A stretch of DNA of 64,000 nucleotides from Arcanobacterium phocisimile (GTDB lineage Bacteria > Actinomycetota > Actinomycetes > Actinomycetales > Actinomycetaceae). A model generated the notes under the pieces. The model saw only the letters and a program-made list of their open reading frames with translations. It had not been told where the DNA came from and did no database searches. Made by a program: the position numbers and the translations under genes. Shown in pieces: positions 42,951 through 47,746 of this stretch (the first letter of the stretch is position 1; each line of letters opens with the position of its first letter). The stretch lies in contig NZ_CP070228.1 in NCBI RefSeq assembly GCF_016904675.1, positions 1,054,001 to 1,118,000 of the forward strand, read 5' to 3'.

Positions 42951-44387
42951 GTGGAGACCTTGTTAAAACAAGCTATTGTTATTGCACTCGCATTCATGGG
43001 CCTCATCATTGGTGCGGGATTCGCCTCGGGGCAAGAATTGCTCGTCTATTTTATTGCTTTCGGAGTGCCCGGTATTTGGGGTGCACTCGCGGCGGCCGTG
43101 CTTTTTGCTCTCTCGGGCTATGTTGTCATGCAGCTAGGTTCATATTTTCATGCCAAAGAACACTCGGCAGTGTTCGACGAAGTTTCACATCCAATCGTTT
43201 CTCGGATGCTCGATGTCTTCACAATCCTCGTGCTTTTCACGATGGGTTTTGTCATGATTGCTGGAGCAGGTGCAAACTTCCACCAGCAGTACGGCTTACC
43301 CACCTGGGTTGGATCGATCGTGCTCGTTGGGCTCATTATCTTCGCAGGTATGCTTGACGTTGATAAAGTGACGACGGTGATCGGCTTGATAACGCCGTTT
43401 ATTCTGATCTTCATTGTACTTGCATCCATACATGCATTCACCGATGCAACGTTATCCATTAGTGCACTCGAACCAGTTGCGAAAGAGCACCTCACTCCTG
43501 CTATTTCATCATTGGTGTTATCAACCGTTAACTATGTAACGATGTCAATGGCTCTTGCGATTTCAATGGCCTTGGTTATGGGCGGAAACTTGCTCAATAC
43601 TCGGGTAGCCGGGCTCGGAGGTCTTATCGGTGGCGGTATTTTCGGTATCATTCTCATGCTTGCGGTGCTGGCAATATTCACTCAAGTAGACAAAGTCTAC
43701 GGCGCTCCAATGCCAATGCTTGAAGTTGTCAATCAAATTCATCCACTAGCCGGTATCGCGATGGCAGTAATCGTTTACGGCATGATTTTTAATACTGCTA
43801 TCGGCCTTTACTACGCACTAGCTAAACGTGTTACTTCAACTGCTCCGAAGCTGTTCCTCCCCGCAATCGTCATCTTTTCATTTATTGGATTTGGTTTATC
43901 GTTCTTCGGTTTCGAATCCCTCGTGGGCACGCTCTATCCGATGGTTGGATACGTAGGGATCATCATGATGGGCATCTTAGGTTACGCTTGGTTTACTAGA
44001 CGTGAGGCTATCAAGCAAGAGAACAAGATCCGCAACAAAATCCGTAAGCTGTTGCGTGTAAAATGGGATGTCACCCGAGTTTTTACTCGAAAACATGAGG
44101 CTGCACTCGTGAAAGCCTTGGATGCTTCAAACGTCGATTCTCTCGAACAGCACCGCGAAGTTTCAGCCGAGGTGGTCGCTGAGATCGAAGAAGACGACAA
44201 CGCCGATGTGGAGCCGGCGTGGGAAGCAATCTCCCAGCAATGGGAAGAAGAGGCTGAGGCTGTGGAAAACGGCGAGGACTTCGACCCGGAAAATGTTGAT
44301 CGAACTGAAGCTCGAGTCCAAGAGTTAGAAGCACAGCACGAAAAAGAAACCGACGATGATGAAAACGCCACACCGCCGTCGCAGTAA
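42951..44387 (+). CDS. YkvI-family permease with acidic cytoplasmic tail
   Basis: The 478-residue protein has ten or eleven membrane helices in residues 1-350. The N-terminal GLIIGAGFASGQELLVYF is the unwound-helix motif of the APC-superfamily YkvI group, and VNYVTMSMALAISMALVMGG resembles the pseudo-repeat partner. The last 120 residues are soluble, charged and strongly acidic (EEDDNADVEPAWEAISQQWE). The substrate is unknown, perhaps an amino acid with a cation. The start is GTG 42951 with a weak AGAAG ribosome site. The tail is longer than I would expect for the family. Confidence 0.82.
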   Translation: METLLKQAIVIALAFMGLIIGAGFASGQELLVYFIAFGVPGIWGALAAAVLFALSGYVVMQLGSYFHAKEHSAVFDEVSHPIVSRMLDVFTILVLFTMGFVMIAGAGANFHQQYGLPTWVGSIVLVGLIIFAGMLDVDKVTTVIGLITPFILIFIVLASIHAFTDATLSISALEPVAKEHLTPAISSLVLSTVNYVTMSMALAISMALVMGGNLLNTRVAGLGGLIGGGIFGIILMLAVLAIFTQVDKVYGAPMPMLEVVNQIHPLAGIAMAVIVYGMIFNTAIGLYYALAKRVTSTAPKLFLPAIVIFSFIGFGLSFFGFESLVGTLYPMVGYVGIIMMGILGYAWFTRREAIKQENKIRNKIRKLLRVKWDVTRVFTRKHEAALVKALDASNVDSLEQHREVSAEVVAEIEEDDNADVEPAWEAISQQWEEEAEAVENGEDFDPENVDRTEARVQELEAQHEKETDDDENATPPSQ

Positions 44388-44479: not shown

Positions 44480-45226
44480 CTACTTGCTACCAAATCCTTG
44501 TGCTTGGATATGTTCCATAAAGCGATCCTTCAACTCCGTAGTTCGCAGCTTACGCACAATCTGAGTCGTGAAAGCATCTACCCGGCGATTAAGATCTCGC
44601 GAATCGTAGTAAGTCGTCATCTTTTCATCATATTCAGCTAACGTTTGAACCCAAGATTCAGGCTCAGCATAGGTATTTTCCATAACCCGCAAATTCGTAT
44701 CCATTCGTGGCTTGAGCTGAGGCGTTTGAGCAGGATGCCCGAAAATCATTCCCAGAGCAGGAAAGGTGAAGTTTGGAAGCTGCAATAACGAAATTACTGA
44801 TGGAATATCATTAAGAATAGAACCTAGTAGCGTCACCCCAAGCCCCATAGACTCTGCGGCAACCGTCATGTTTTGAATCATGAGAATGGCATCGGTGAAG
44901 CCTTCACGGAAAGCATCCATTGACTTTGCAGGGGTCGAATCCTGACCTAGTTCATCGAGAATACGCACACTACGCCGTGTATCTACGACCGCTACCACTA
45001 ACTCTGGGGCCTTGGCAATATACGGCTGGTTGCCTATCTCGGCGAGCCGGTCGCGAATCATTTGATCAGTAATCCGGATCAGTCCAGCATGCTGAAATCC
45101 CCGCGAAGTCGACGTTCTCATCGCAACATCGAAAATCGTTTCGACGACGTCGTTCGCTACGGGTTCGGAAGAAAACTCACGTATCGAACGATGTTGTAAC
45201 TGTTGAGAAATGGTTTCGTTGATCAC
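44480..45226 (-). CDS. Nitroreductase-family (NfsA-like) NADPH oxidoreductase
   Basis: The 248-residue flavoprotein starts with QQLQHRSIREFSSEPV (FMN-phosphate binding RSIREF) and has SRGFQHAGLIRITD, AESMGLGVTLLGSI (FMN contact) and FPALGMIFGHPAQTPQLKPRM, the GxPxxxPxxKPR pattern of the NfsA/FRP branch. It should reduce nitro compounds, quinones or flavin with NADPH. It is the last gene of a coupled operon, overlapping argR by 4 bases. A link between this enzyme and arginine control is not obvious. Confidence 0.87.
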   Translation of the reverse strand: MINETISQQLQHRSIREFSSEPVANDVVETIFDVAMRTSTSRGFQHAGLIRITDQMIRDRLAEIGNQPYIAKAPELVVAVVDTRRSVRILDELGQDSTPAKSMDAFREGFTDAILMIQNMTVAAESMGLGVTLLGSILNDIPSVISLLQLPNFTFPALGMIFGHPAQTPQLKPRMDTNLRVMENTYAEPESWVQTLAEYDEKMTTYYDSRDLNRRVDAFTTQIVRKLRTTELKDRFMEHIQAQGFGSK

Positions 45227-45732
45227 TTGGTTTCTCCAATAGAGGTATGAGCCAAGAGTAGCAATTCAGTTTTCAGTTCGATTGCGCGCTGAGTTGACGA
45301 GGAGATCACCAGGACTGTGTCATCGCCGGCAATACAGCCTAAGACGCCATCGATAACAGCACGGTCCAAAGATGATGCCAGAAGCTGAGCTGCACCGGGA
45401 GGGGTACGCAAAACAACCTGGTTATCAGCTTGCTGTGCACTAACCAAGAGCTCACGTGCCCAGCGTTTGAGTTGAGCACGAACACCGTTATCAGATTCGG
45501 CTAATTCCGTAACGCCCGGGACTCGGTAAACACGCTGTCCGGCAGAATTATGTTCTTTGAATGCCCGGAGTTCTTCAAGATCACGTGACAATGTCGCTTG
45601 AGTAACAACTATGCCTTGGTCGTGCAAAAGCTGGCGAAGTTCAGCCTGCGATGCGATAGGCGACTGATCAATTAAAGCTACTATCATTGCTTGACGTGCA
45701 GCGCGGGTTGTAGGGATTGTCCGATCCATCAC
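45223..45732 (-). CDS. argR: Arginine repressor ArgR
   Basis: The 169-residue protein has the ArgR winged helix (ARQAMIVALIDQSPIASQAELRQLL then GIVVTQATLSRDLEELRAFK, with the SRDL recognition helix) and the hexamerisation/arginine-binding domain (VLGCIAGDDTVLVISSST, GD motif). Other arginine genes (argC, argJ, argB, argG, argH) are not in the window. It overlaps the upstream ArgD-like gene and the downstream nitroreductase by 4 bases each. A local autoregulatory ARG box was not recognised. Confidence 0.92.
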   Translation of the reverse strand: MMDRTIPTTRAARQAMIVALIDQSPIASQAELRQLLHDQGIVVTQATLSRDLEELRAFKEHNSAGQRVYRVPGVTELAESDNGVRAQLKRWARELLVSAQQADNQVVLRTPPGAAQLLASSLDRAVIDGVLGCIAGDDTVLVISSSTQRAIELKTELLLLAHTSIGETK

Positions 45733-46874
45733 TTTATCTCCTGTATTTCGGCCATCGCTATCACGAACGGATGCAGGTCTTCACGAGTAATAATCAGTGG
45801 CGGCAACAGCCGGATTCTGTCATTACTCGTCGCAGATACTAAAAACCCACGCATCCGCAATTCTTGTTCAACCCTGTATGCTTCTGGGACTTCAAGGGAA
45901 AGCATCAACCCCTCGCCTTGCACTTCATAGCCTAGGTCGCTTAATTCCTGTTTCAACCATGCCCCAGTTAACGTGATTTGTGGAAGTAACGGTTCAAGCG
46001 TATCTATCACGCTTAGTCCCGCAGCCGTAGCGAGCGGACTTCCACCGGTGGCAGACGATTCCATACCACGCTGGATCAACCGACCAGCAGTTTGAAAACC
46101 GATTGTGACACCGATAGGAACACCGCCGCCTAAACCACGAGCTAGTGTAATCACATCGGCTACCACGCGCGGAGTGTGCGCAAACCAACGACCAGTTCTT
46201 CCAGCTCCGGATAGCGACTCATCAACGATGAGCAACGCACCATAGCGATCGCACAGATCACGAATTCGACCTAATTCTTCGTCACTTAGCCGCTCGATAG
46301 AGCGACCGTGATGTATATCGATAACGCAAGCAGCCACGTCGTCATCGAACGACTCAGCAAGCTCCGTCGCGTTCTGGAGCACTTCTACCCCGCCAACAAG
46401 CGGTTCGAACGGCGAACGCGATACTTCATCTGCCAACGACAGAGCACCCATTGTTCGGCCGTGATATGAACGGTTCAATGTCAAAATTCGCCCGCGAGGC
46501 TTATGCAATCTAGCTAGCTTGAGAGCCGATTCCATTGCCTCGGATCCCGAATTAGAGAAAAATACTCGAGCAGTAGCTCCTAAATATCCTTCATCGGACA
46601 AACACTGCTGAATACGTTCAGCTAACGCGACCTGTGGCTCTGTGGCATAAACATTTGCCACATGGAGGATTTTGTCAGCTTGTGCTGACACGGCAGCACG
46701 TAACTGGGGATGCTTGTGTCCCAACGATGTGACGCCACCACCAGAATCCAGATCGAGGTATGCATTGCCATCAGTATCCCACACTGTAATACCTTCACCG
46801 CGTGAAAGAACCAGCGGTGGCAACCCGTATGCTGCCATCATACTTTGATCGTAACGTGGTAATAGTCCCGACAT
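45729..46874 (-). CDS. ArgD-like class III aminotransferase homologue lacking the PLP lysine
   Basis: The 381-residue protein follows ArgD along its length: SGGGVTSLGHKHPQL, VFFSNSGSEAMESALKLAR (phosphate loop), RSYHGRTMGALSLA, LIVDESLSGAGRTG and the region VITLARGLGGGVPIG. In active enzymes that last motif reads LAKGLGGG and its lysine binds pyridoxal phosphate; here it is arginine (codon CGT). The usual DEVQTG is DESLSG, EPVQGEGG is replaced by DIHHGRSIE, and FGGNPL by TGGSPL. So I judge it an inactive or altered homologue, perhaps regulatory. It is first in the operon with argR. Confidence 0.85.
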   Translation of the reverse strand: MSGLLPRYDQSMMAAYGLPPLVLSRGEGITVWDTDGNAYLDLDSGGGVTSLGHKHPQLRAAVSAQADKILHVANVYATEPQVALAERIQQCLSDEGYLGATARVFFSNSGSEAMESALKLARLHKPRGRILTLNRSYHGRTMGALSLADEVSRSPFEPLVGGVEVLQNATELAESFDDDVAACVIDIHHGRSIERLSDEELGRIRDLCDRYGALLIVDESLSGAGRTGRWFAHTPRVVADVITLARGLGGGVPIGVTIGFQTAGRLIQRGMESSATGGSPLATAAGLSVIDTLEPLLPQITLTGAWLKQELSDLGYEVQGEGLMLSLEVPEAYRVEQELRMRGFLVSATSNDRIRLLPPLIITREDLHPFVIAMAEIQEIK

Positions 46875-46957
46875 TAGCCACCTTCACTTCCACTTAACAC
46901 TGTGCATAACTATACAAGGTAACGGATGGGAGCCATGGGTAAAGTAGTGTTAACCCG

Positions 46958-47746
46958 CTAACGTGACTGATCCGACCACGGGGTTAACCGTAACTTGCGC
47001 TCAGCGGCGCCAACCCCCTGCTTCGCCCGCGAACGCAACTCTTCTAAAGAATCAGTACCTGCACGCACCTGCGTTCCAGCAAGCGAGTCGAGCTCACCAT
47101 CAGCAATAGCCGCGATTATTTCAGATACTTCGTTTGGGGAATTCCATTCAGTACGGTTTTTATGCATCAACTGGTTATCCGTCATATCGGTCTTTACGAT
47201 GCCGGGGGCTACCGAGAAAACTCTTAAACCTGAATTATACCCAGCTTCGTGTAACGACCCAGCAAACCGCATTAACGCGGTCTTGGACACAAAATATGCT
47301 GAGGACATTGCGTTATCGAATACTGCTGCACCCGAAGAAAGGTCAACGATTCGGCCACCACCACGTGCCAACATGCCAGGAACTAAACCATGGGCGAGCA
47401 GATAAGGTGCCCGAACATTAATTTCTTGGGTCTTCCACCACGATACGGGGTCAGTTTCCCACGGTAATGCTTCCTCAAACATGACACCAGCATTATTGAT
47501 CATCATGTCGATGGGTTCGTCTACTACCTGCTCAACGAACGTAGCAATCTCTTCCGGTTGCGCTAGATCCACGCCGAAAGTCATCACTTGTGCACCGCGA
47601 GAATTGCACGCCTTCGCAGTGTCGTATAAGGCCTCGTGAGTACGTGCCAACAGTAGAAGCGTACGACCTGGGCAAGCGATCTTACGTGCAATATGTGCAC
47701 CAATTCCGCGAGATGCACCGGTAAGCAAAATAGTTGAAGAGTCCAT
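46958..47746 (-). CDS. Short-chain dehydrogenase/reductase
   Basis: The 262-residue SDR has the cofactor loop LLTGASRGIGAHIARKI (TGxxxGIG), NNAGVMFEE (NNAG), catalytic Ser-Tyr-Lys in VDLSSGAAVFDNAMSSAYFVSKTAL (YxxxK) and the PG motif VAPGIVKTDM. RTHEAL after the second strand fits NADPH use. Substrate is unknown. It lies alone after a strong hairpin that ends the pheST transcript; its own promoter would need to be in the 8-50 bases upstream, so read-through may contribute. Confidence 0.88.
   Translation of the reverse strand: MDSSTILLTGASRGIGAHIARKIACPGRTLLLLARTHEALYDTAKACNSRGAQVMTFGVDLAQPEEIATFVEQVVDEPIDMMINNAGVMFEEALPWETDPVSWWKTQEINVRAPYLLAHGLVPGMLARGGGRIVDLSSGAAVFDNAMSSAYFVSKTALMRFAGSLHEAGYNSGLRVFSVAPGIVKTDMTDNQLMHKNRTEWNSPNEVSEIIAAIADGELDSLAGTQVRAGTDSLEELRSRAKQGVGAAERKLRLTPWSDQSR

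Follow-up and report, generated by a model that had tools for sequence, protein, structure and literature searches.

Introduction

The lysine that forms the Schiff base with pyridoxal phosphate (PLP) is not present in every fold type I protein. ColD-type PMP-dependent sugar dehydratases, which have this fold, carry His in its place. Mycobacterium tuberculosis Rv3778c, a fold type I relative of the cysteine desulfurases, also lacks the PLP lysine and is likely noncatalytic (PMC12910592).

The lysine is indispensable in ArgD, a class III aminotransferase of fold type I with solved structures from M. tuberculosis (7NN1) and C. glutamicum (8HT2). In Synechocystis ArgD, the K280A variant is inactive, Q254A and T308A retain 0.9% and 0.3% of kcat, respectively, and E223A/S substitutions leave 2-oxoglutarate binding almost unchanged but increase the Km for acetylornithine 65-73-fold; carboxylates are bound by R163 and R402 (PMC10057298). 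Similarly, K268A, D239A, G114A and T296A variants of Crocosphaera ArgD are inactive (PMC13412850). In both ArgD and AstC, the PLP phosphate of one subunit is bound by the Thr in the HGTTFGGNP loop of its partner (PMC10057298; AstC active-site contacts in PMC3590144).

Here we analyse an argD-like gene in a 64,000-nucleotide stretch of the Arcanobacterium phocisimile genome (contig NZ_CP070228.1, positions 1,054,001 to 1,118,000), hereafter the window. Its product resembles ArgD in full-length homology over 370 aa, in its ancestral operon position and in retaining the phosphate loop, the pyridine-N aspartate and the carboxylate-binding arginines, but it lacks the Schiff-base lysine, is changed in the N-terminal IAVN segment, in the Glu switch loop and at two cofactor contacts (the Gln at PLP O3' and the Thr that reaches the phosphate from the partner subunit), and has lost its pathway. 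With the ColD-type enzymes it shares the fold type and another residue at the lysine position; unlike them it belongs to a different family, carries Arg rather than His and shows further losses in the cofactor site. Like Rv3778c, it is a retained actinobacterial PLP-fold protein without the PLP-binding lysine, but for Rv3778c no link to argR or to a lost pathway is described (PMC12910592). Among the papers searched, we found no description of this protein.

Results

The gene occupies positions 45729-46874 on the minus strand of the window, in a genome of 1.99 Mb assembled as one contig. As the sequence-only reading had claimed, the reading frame is intact, encodes 381 aa and overlaps by 4 bp the arginine repressor gene argR (45223-45732, minus strand), whose product keeps the arginine-binding motif GCIAGDDT with its GDDT intact. 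Profile searches matched the protein over its whole length to class III aminotransferases (PF00202, 2e-70; PRK03244, 6e-109). The best models are those of acetylornithine transaminase, yet the scores fall below the curated cut-offs (364 bits versus 457 for NF002874 and 308 versus 410 for TIGR00707). Among solved structures, those nearest in sequence are the ArgD proteins of M. tuberculosis (7nn1_A, 1e-69) and C. glutamicum, and an AlphaFold2 model computed from five sequences was poor (mean pLDDT 60.8).

Alignment confirmed that Arg stands in place of the PLP lysine. The residue, Arg246, has the codon CGT at 46137-46139 (minus strand, like all features of the gene given below) and lies within VITLARGLGGGVPIG, so that the protein reads LARGLGGG where ArgD has LAKGLGGG; the lysine is present in 47 of the 48 other aligned ArgD homologues, the one exception being a second, independent Lys-to-Arg case (see below). 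The same alignment upheld the claim that three other active-site segments are altered while the phosphate loop is kept. First, DEVQTG is replaced by DESLSG (218-223; DESLS at 46209-46223), which retains Asp218 and turns the Gln into Leu221. Second, DIHHGRSI (186-193; 46296-46319) stands in place of EPIQGEAGV with one residue deleted, the EPIQGEAG motif reading D(I/V)HHG-RS. Third, HGTTFGGNPL has become ESSATGGSPL (ESSATGGSP, 272-280, at 46035-46061), with Ala or Ser at position 275 among the orthologues. The N-terminal GGIAVN segment is likewise changed, to SGGGVT (GGVT for IAVN, 46-49, at 46728-46739). Conversely, the phosphate-binding loop NSGSEA (NSGSE, 108-112, at 46539-46553), Asp218, Arg140 within HGR (46455-46457) and Arg355 (45810-45812) are retained and invariant among the orthologues; in ArgD, Arg140 corresponds to the arginine that binds the carboxylates of the substrate and of 2-oxoglutarate, and Arg355 to the second carboxylate-binding arginine (PMC10057298). 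We also considered a replacement lysine that could take over, and rejected it as far as conserved lysines show: none that is new to the Arcanobacterium proteins lies in a catalytic motif, and none near the pocket was evident from the sequence.

With residue equivalence assigned by motif, the positions of Synechocystis K280, Q254, T308 and E223 are all changed (Arg246, Leu221, Ala275 and the remodelled Glu loop), and those of D251, R163 and R402 are retained (Asp218, Arg140 and Arg355). Because mutants of the homologues at the changed positions are inactive or crippled, the protein has very likely lost acetylornithine transamination. The pocket may nonetheless still bind dicarboxylates, and ligand sensing is plausible since it keeps the arginines that bind them.

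The gene is found in six of nine Arcanobacterium genomes, each time with Arg246 and the same altered loops, and the substitution is thus fixed across the clade that carries the gene. The orthologues, among them that of Arcanobacterium phocae (L031, 80%), are 79-88% identical to the window copy. Three species use CGT for Arg246 and three use CGA, indicating that a synonymous change took place while Arg was kept. A sequencing error or a strain-specific mutation, which had been named as an outcome that would overturn the reading, was rejected on the basis of Arg246 in six species, and no orthologue carries the lysine or shows decay. A profile search of 213 genomes of the family recovered the six at 813-830 bits and, as the next best match, a Lys-bearing protein at 435 bits. 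The search for a second, normal argD that the earlier reading had proposed returned none in the rest of the genome; the argD-like gene is the only class III aminotransferase gene that any of the six genomes carries.

Strong purifying selection acts on the gene. Mean pairwise identity among the six species is 0.826 for the ArgD-like protein, above PheT (0.793) and the neighbouring short-chain dehydrogenase (SDR; 0.737) and nitroreductase (0.715), and the median dN is 0.144; most comparisons between Arcanobacterium species show saturation at synonymous sites, so that dN/dS by Nei-Gojobori counts is poorly estimable clade-wide. An essential catalytic residue has been lost from a protein that is itself conserved, as expected of a pseudoenzyme. 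That the gene is decaying, or survives purely as a leader frame for argR translation, is scarcely credible: its place directly upstream of argR, with the 4-bp overlap, and its deletion in three sister genomes would suit such a role, but it is intact in six of six species with low dN and amino-acid conservation above that of PheT, argR is by inference expressed without it elsewhere, and the gene of the second lineage described below is constrained too.

The pattern of change bears on another explanation, namely that the protein is a re-tooled, ColD-like enzyme whose lysine-independent reaction relies on non-covalently bound PLP or PMP, or on a different cofactor or substrate. Twenty-five family-conserved columns are altered in the six species, 20 of which are invariant among them, and the Arcanobacterium stem branch of the gene tree measures 1.08 substitutions per site; this refixation after a long stem branch, together with retention of Asp218, the phosphate loop, HGR140 and Arg355, speaks for such an enzyme. 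We consider it unlikely, however, as the protein is altered at Gln221, Thr275, the Schiff-base lysine and the region of Glu191 at once, and any one of these changes by itself disables or cripples ArgD (PMC10057298, PMC13412850), and the retained neighbouring genes point to no pathway.

Comparison of the locus with that of relatives revealed how much of the arginine pathway is gone. Relatives have the order pheS-pheT-(SDR)-argC-J-B-D-R-G-...-argH-tyrS, in some cases including argF and a nitroreductase gene, whereas the six species have kept only SDR, the argD-like gene, argR and the nitroreductase gene between pheT and tyrS. The SDR gene (46958-47746, minus strand), which lies upstream of argC in relatives, and the nitroreductase-family gene (44480-45226, minus strand) were both identified by HMM and locus comparison as ancestral neighbours of the arg operon. 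In the six species a gene for a YkvI-like membrane protein (42951-44387 in the window), which runs in the opposite direction, is inserted between the nitroreductase gene and tyrS.

When the six genomes were searched with argC, J, B, F, G and H combined into one query, there was no match to argC, argJ, argB or argF beyond aspartate-carbamoyltransferase-like similarity of about 30%, and the argJ/argB/argC route that supplies the ArgD substrate is thus missing from all six. A divergent argGH pair (40-47% identity) lies elsewhere in the genome in five of the six; in the sixth (G008), the search of the genome gave no argGH match either, leaving no arginine-synthesis gene. In the window genome this pair lies outside the window (G000:C1:582676-585254, L078) as divergent argG-argH genes with 41% and 47% identity to actinobacterial genes and two ARG-box-like sites upstream; its acquisition probably followed the loss of the native argGH.

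Two of the three Arcanobacterium genomes without the argD-like gene, G001 and G003 (L071, L070), read pheT-SDR-argR-tyrS, the argD-like and nitroreductase genes having been cleanly lost and argR left alone. The third, G002, has a separate argC-J-B-D cluster (L048) followed by a large 1076-aa ORF resembling carbamoyl-phosphate synthase and by an argF-like gene, besides its native argR-argG; the ArgD of this cluster is a divergent Lys-type protein (36% identity), and the cluster was possibly acquired.

The substitution of Arg for the lysine arose twice independently. When the motif scan of the 213 family genomes, which requires intact flanking motifs, allowed Arg or Ser at the lysine position, it returned exactly the six Arcanobacterium species and one genome of another genus (G221); no further case emerged when 396 genomes sampled from the order and 396 sampled from the phylum were scanned under the same requirement. 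In G221 the Arg codon is AGG, the gene again lies directly before argR, and the genome is the only one of its genus without argC, argJ, argB, argG and argH. The gene tree requires two Lys-to-Arg changes, and horizontal spread of a single Arg246 gene between the genera was rejected because the starred branches of the tree force two origins. The G221 branch measures 0.33 substitutions per site versus 0.07 for its near relative G218. Comparison of these two genomes gave dN/dS values of 0.115 for argD and 0.105 for pheT, which argues against decay in this lineage.

In part, the two lineages changed alike. Among columns at least 95% conserved, G221 is altered at 11, and 10 of these 11 are among the 23 altered in Arcanobacterium (hypergeometric p = 1.7e-6, in a test that takes columns as exchangeable, although catalytic columns are expected to change together once catalysis is lost); for all other sequences together the overlap is 15 of 77. 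The same residue arose in both lineages at three sites, A47G, K246R and G273S (273 being Ser or Ala in Arcanobacterium). Two lineages that had simply lost one and the same activity would be expected to converge to some extent at catalytic residues. The overlap demonstrates, at a minimum, that both were released from a common constraint; on its own it does not establish a new function common to them.

A further explanation is a residual aminotransferase of weak activity, with Arg246 or solvent carrying out the proton transfer. In its favour, the Thr and the Glu are still present in the G221 protein, and Lys-to-Arg variants of other aminotransferases keep traces of activity. This explanation is very unlikely for the Arcanobacterium proteins, which have lost more than the lysine; moreover, N-acetylornithine cannot be made without argCJB, and G008 lacks every arginine-synthesis gene.

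A 14-bp ARG-box-like palindrome, TGTATAGTTATGCA at 46903-46916 (minus strand) of the window, is found upstream of the argD-argR pair in six of six species as TGTATAGTTATGCA or TGTATAATTATACG, and an ARG-box-like site lies about 100 bp upstream of the lysine-less argD of G221. The same motif precedes argG in several of the six species and an amino-acid ABC transporter operon in the window genome, G004 and G007. Whole-genome counts at one mismatch exceed those of the reversed-pattern control only modestly and the motif alone is no proof; the case for a regulon therefore rests on recurrence at the same genes. With such an operator conserved at its promoter, the argD-like gene plausibly belongs to the ArgR regulon.

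These data separate two parts of the proposed coupling to argR. The shared ARG-box-like palindrome speaks for it. The 4-bp overlap, which had been read as a sign of functional coupling, does not: it is ancestral, because relatives with the full operon (e.g. L121, L120) show the same overlap between a catalytic argD and argR. A role as a dedicated protein partner or as a co-repressor of ArgR is conceivable but doubtful. It would explain why the two genes were kept together and adjacent behind an ARG-box-like site in both lineages, but the adjacency is as ancestral as the overlap, ArgR has its own arginine-binding motif, and G001, G002 and G003 retain argR without the argD-like gene, which indicates that ArgR does not need its product; the persistence of ArgR in G001 and G003 in particular weakens an obligate partnership.

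Discussion

On the basis of its sequence and its distribution, we think it probable that the ArgD-like protein is a pseudo-aminotransferase that selection maintains within the putative ArgR regulon for some function besides ArgD catalysis. The sequence-only reading of a dead transaminase retained for another role remains the best one, strengthened by fixation in the clade, conservation and loss of the pathway, and is still a prediction from sequence. We envisage that the Arcanobacterium ancestor lost argC, argJ, argB, argF and the native argGH, that the remaining ArgD lost its Schiff-base lysine and N-acetylornithine transamination in a burst of active-site change, and that strong purifying selection has since held the protein for its other job. 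It would be made together with ArgR from one promoter with an ARG-box-like site. Its dimeric fold and positive pocket (Arg140, Arg355, Arg246 and perhaps Arg191) might still bind a small anionic metabolite, e.g. 2-oxoglutarate or glutamate, and/or PLP non-covalently, in which case it could act as a sensor or buffer that tunes arginine acquisition.

As the gene was kept after loss of the pathway and has an independent parallel in another genus, its history suggests that the protein has taken on a new role in arginine control, either non-enzymatic or re-tooled. More speculatively, and with considerable reserve, we raise the idea of a recurrent route in which arginine biosynthesis is lost and the leftover ArgD, having lost its lysine, becomes a metabolite sensor, for instance of 2-oxoglutarate or glutamate, and operates together with the arginine acquisition genes under ArgR control. 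If true, a lysine given up twice independently, each time beside the repressor of the pathway, would constitute a natural experiment on the passage from enzyme to pseudoenzyme or sensor. Such genes are liable to be annotated as acetylornithine aminotransferase, and metabolic models would then credit an impossible reaction.

The ArgR regulon seems to take in argGH and an amino-acid ABC transporter as well. In three Arcanobacterium genomes (L155, L156 and L157) the ARG-box-like palindrome lies before an ABC transporter operon encoding a binding protein, a permease and an ATPase, which we name polar-amino-acid-type from the order of its ORFs and the look of their sequences.
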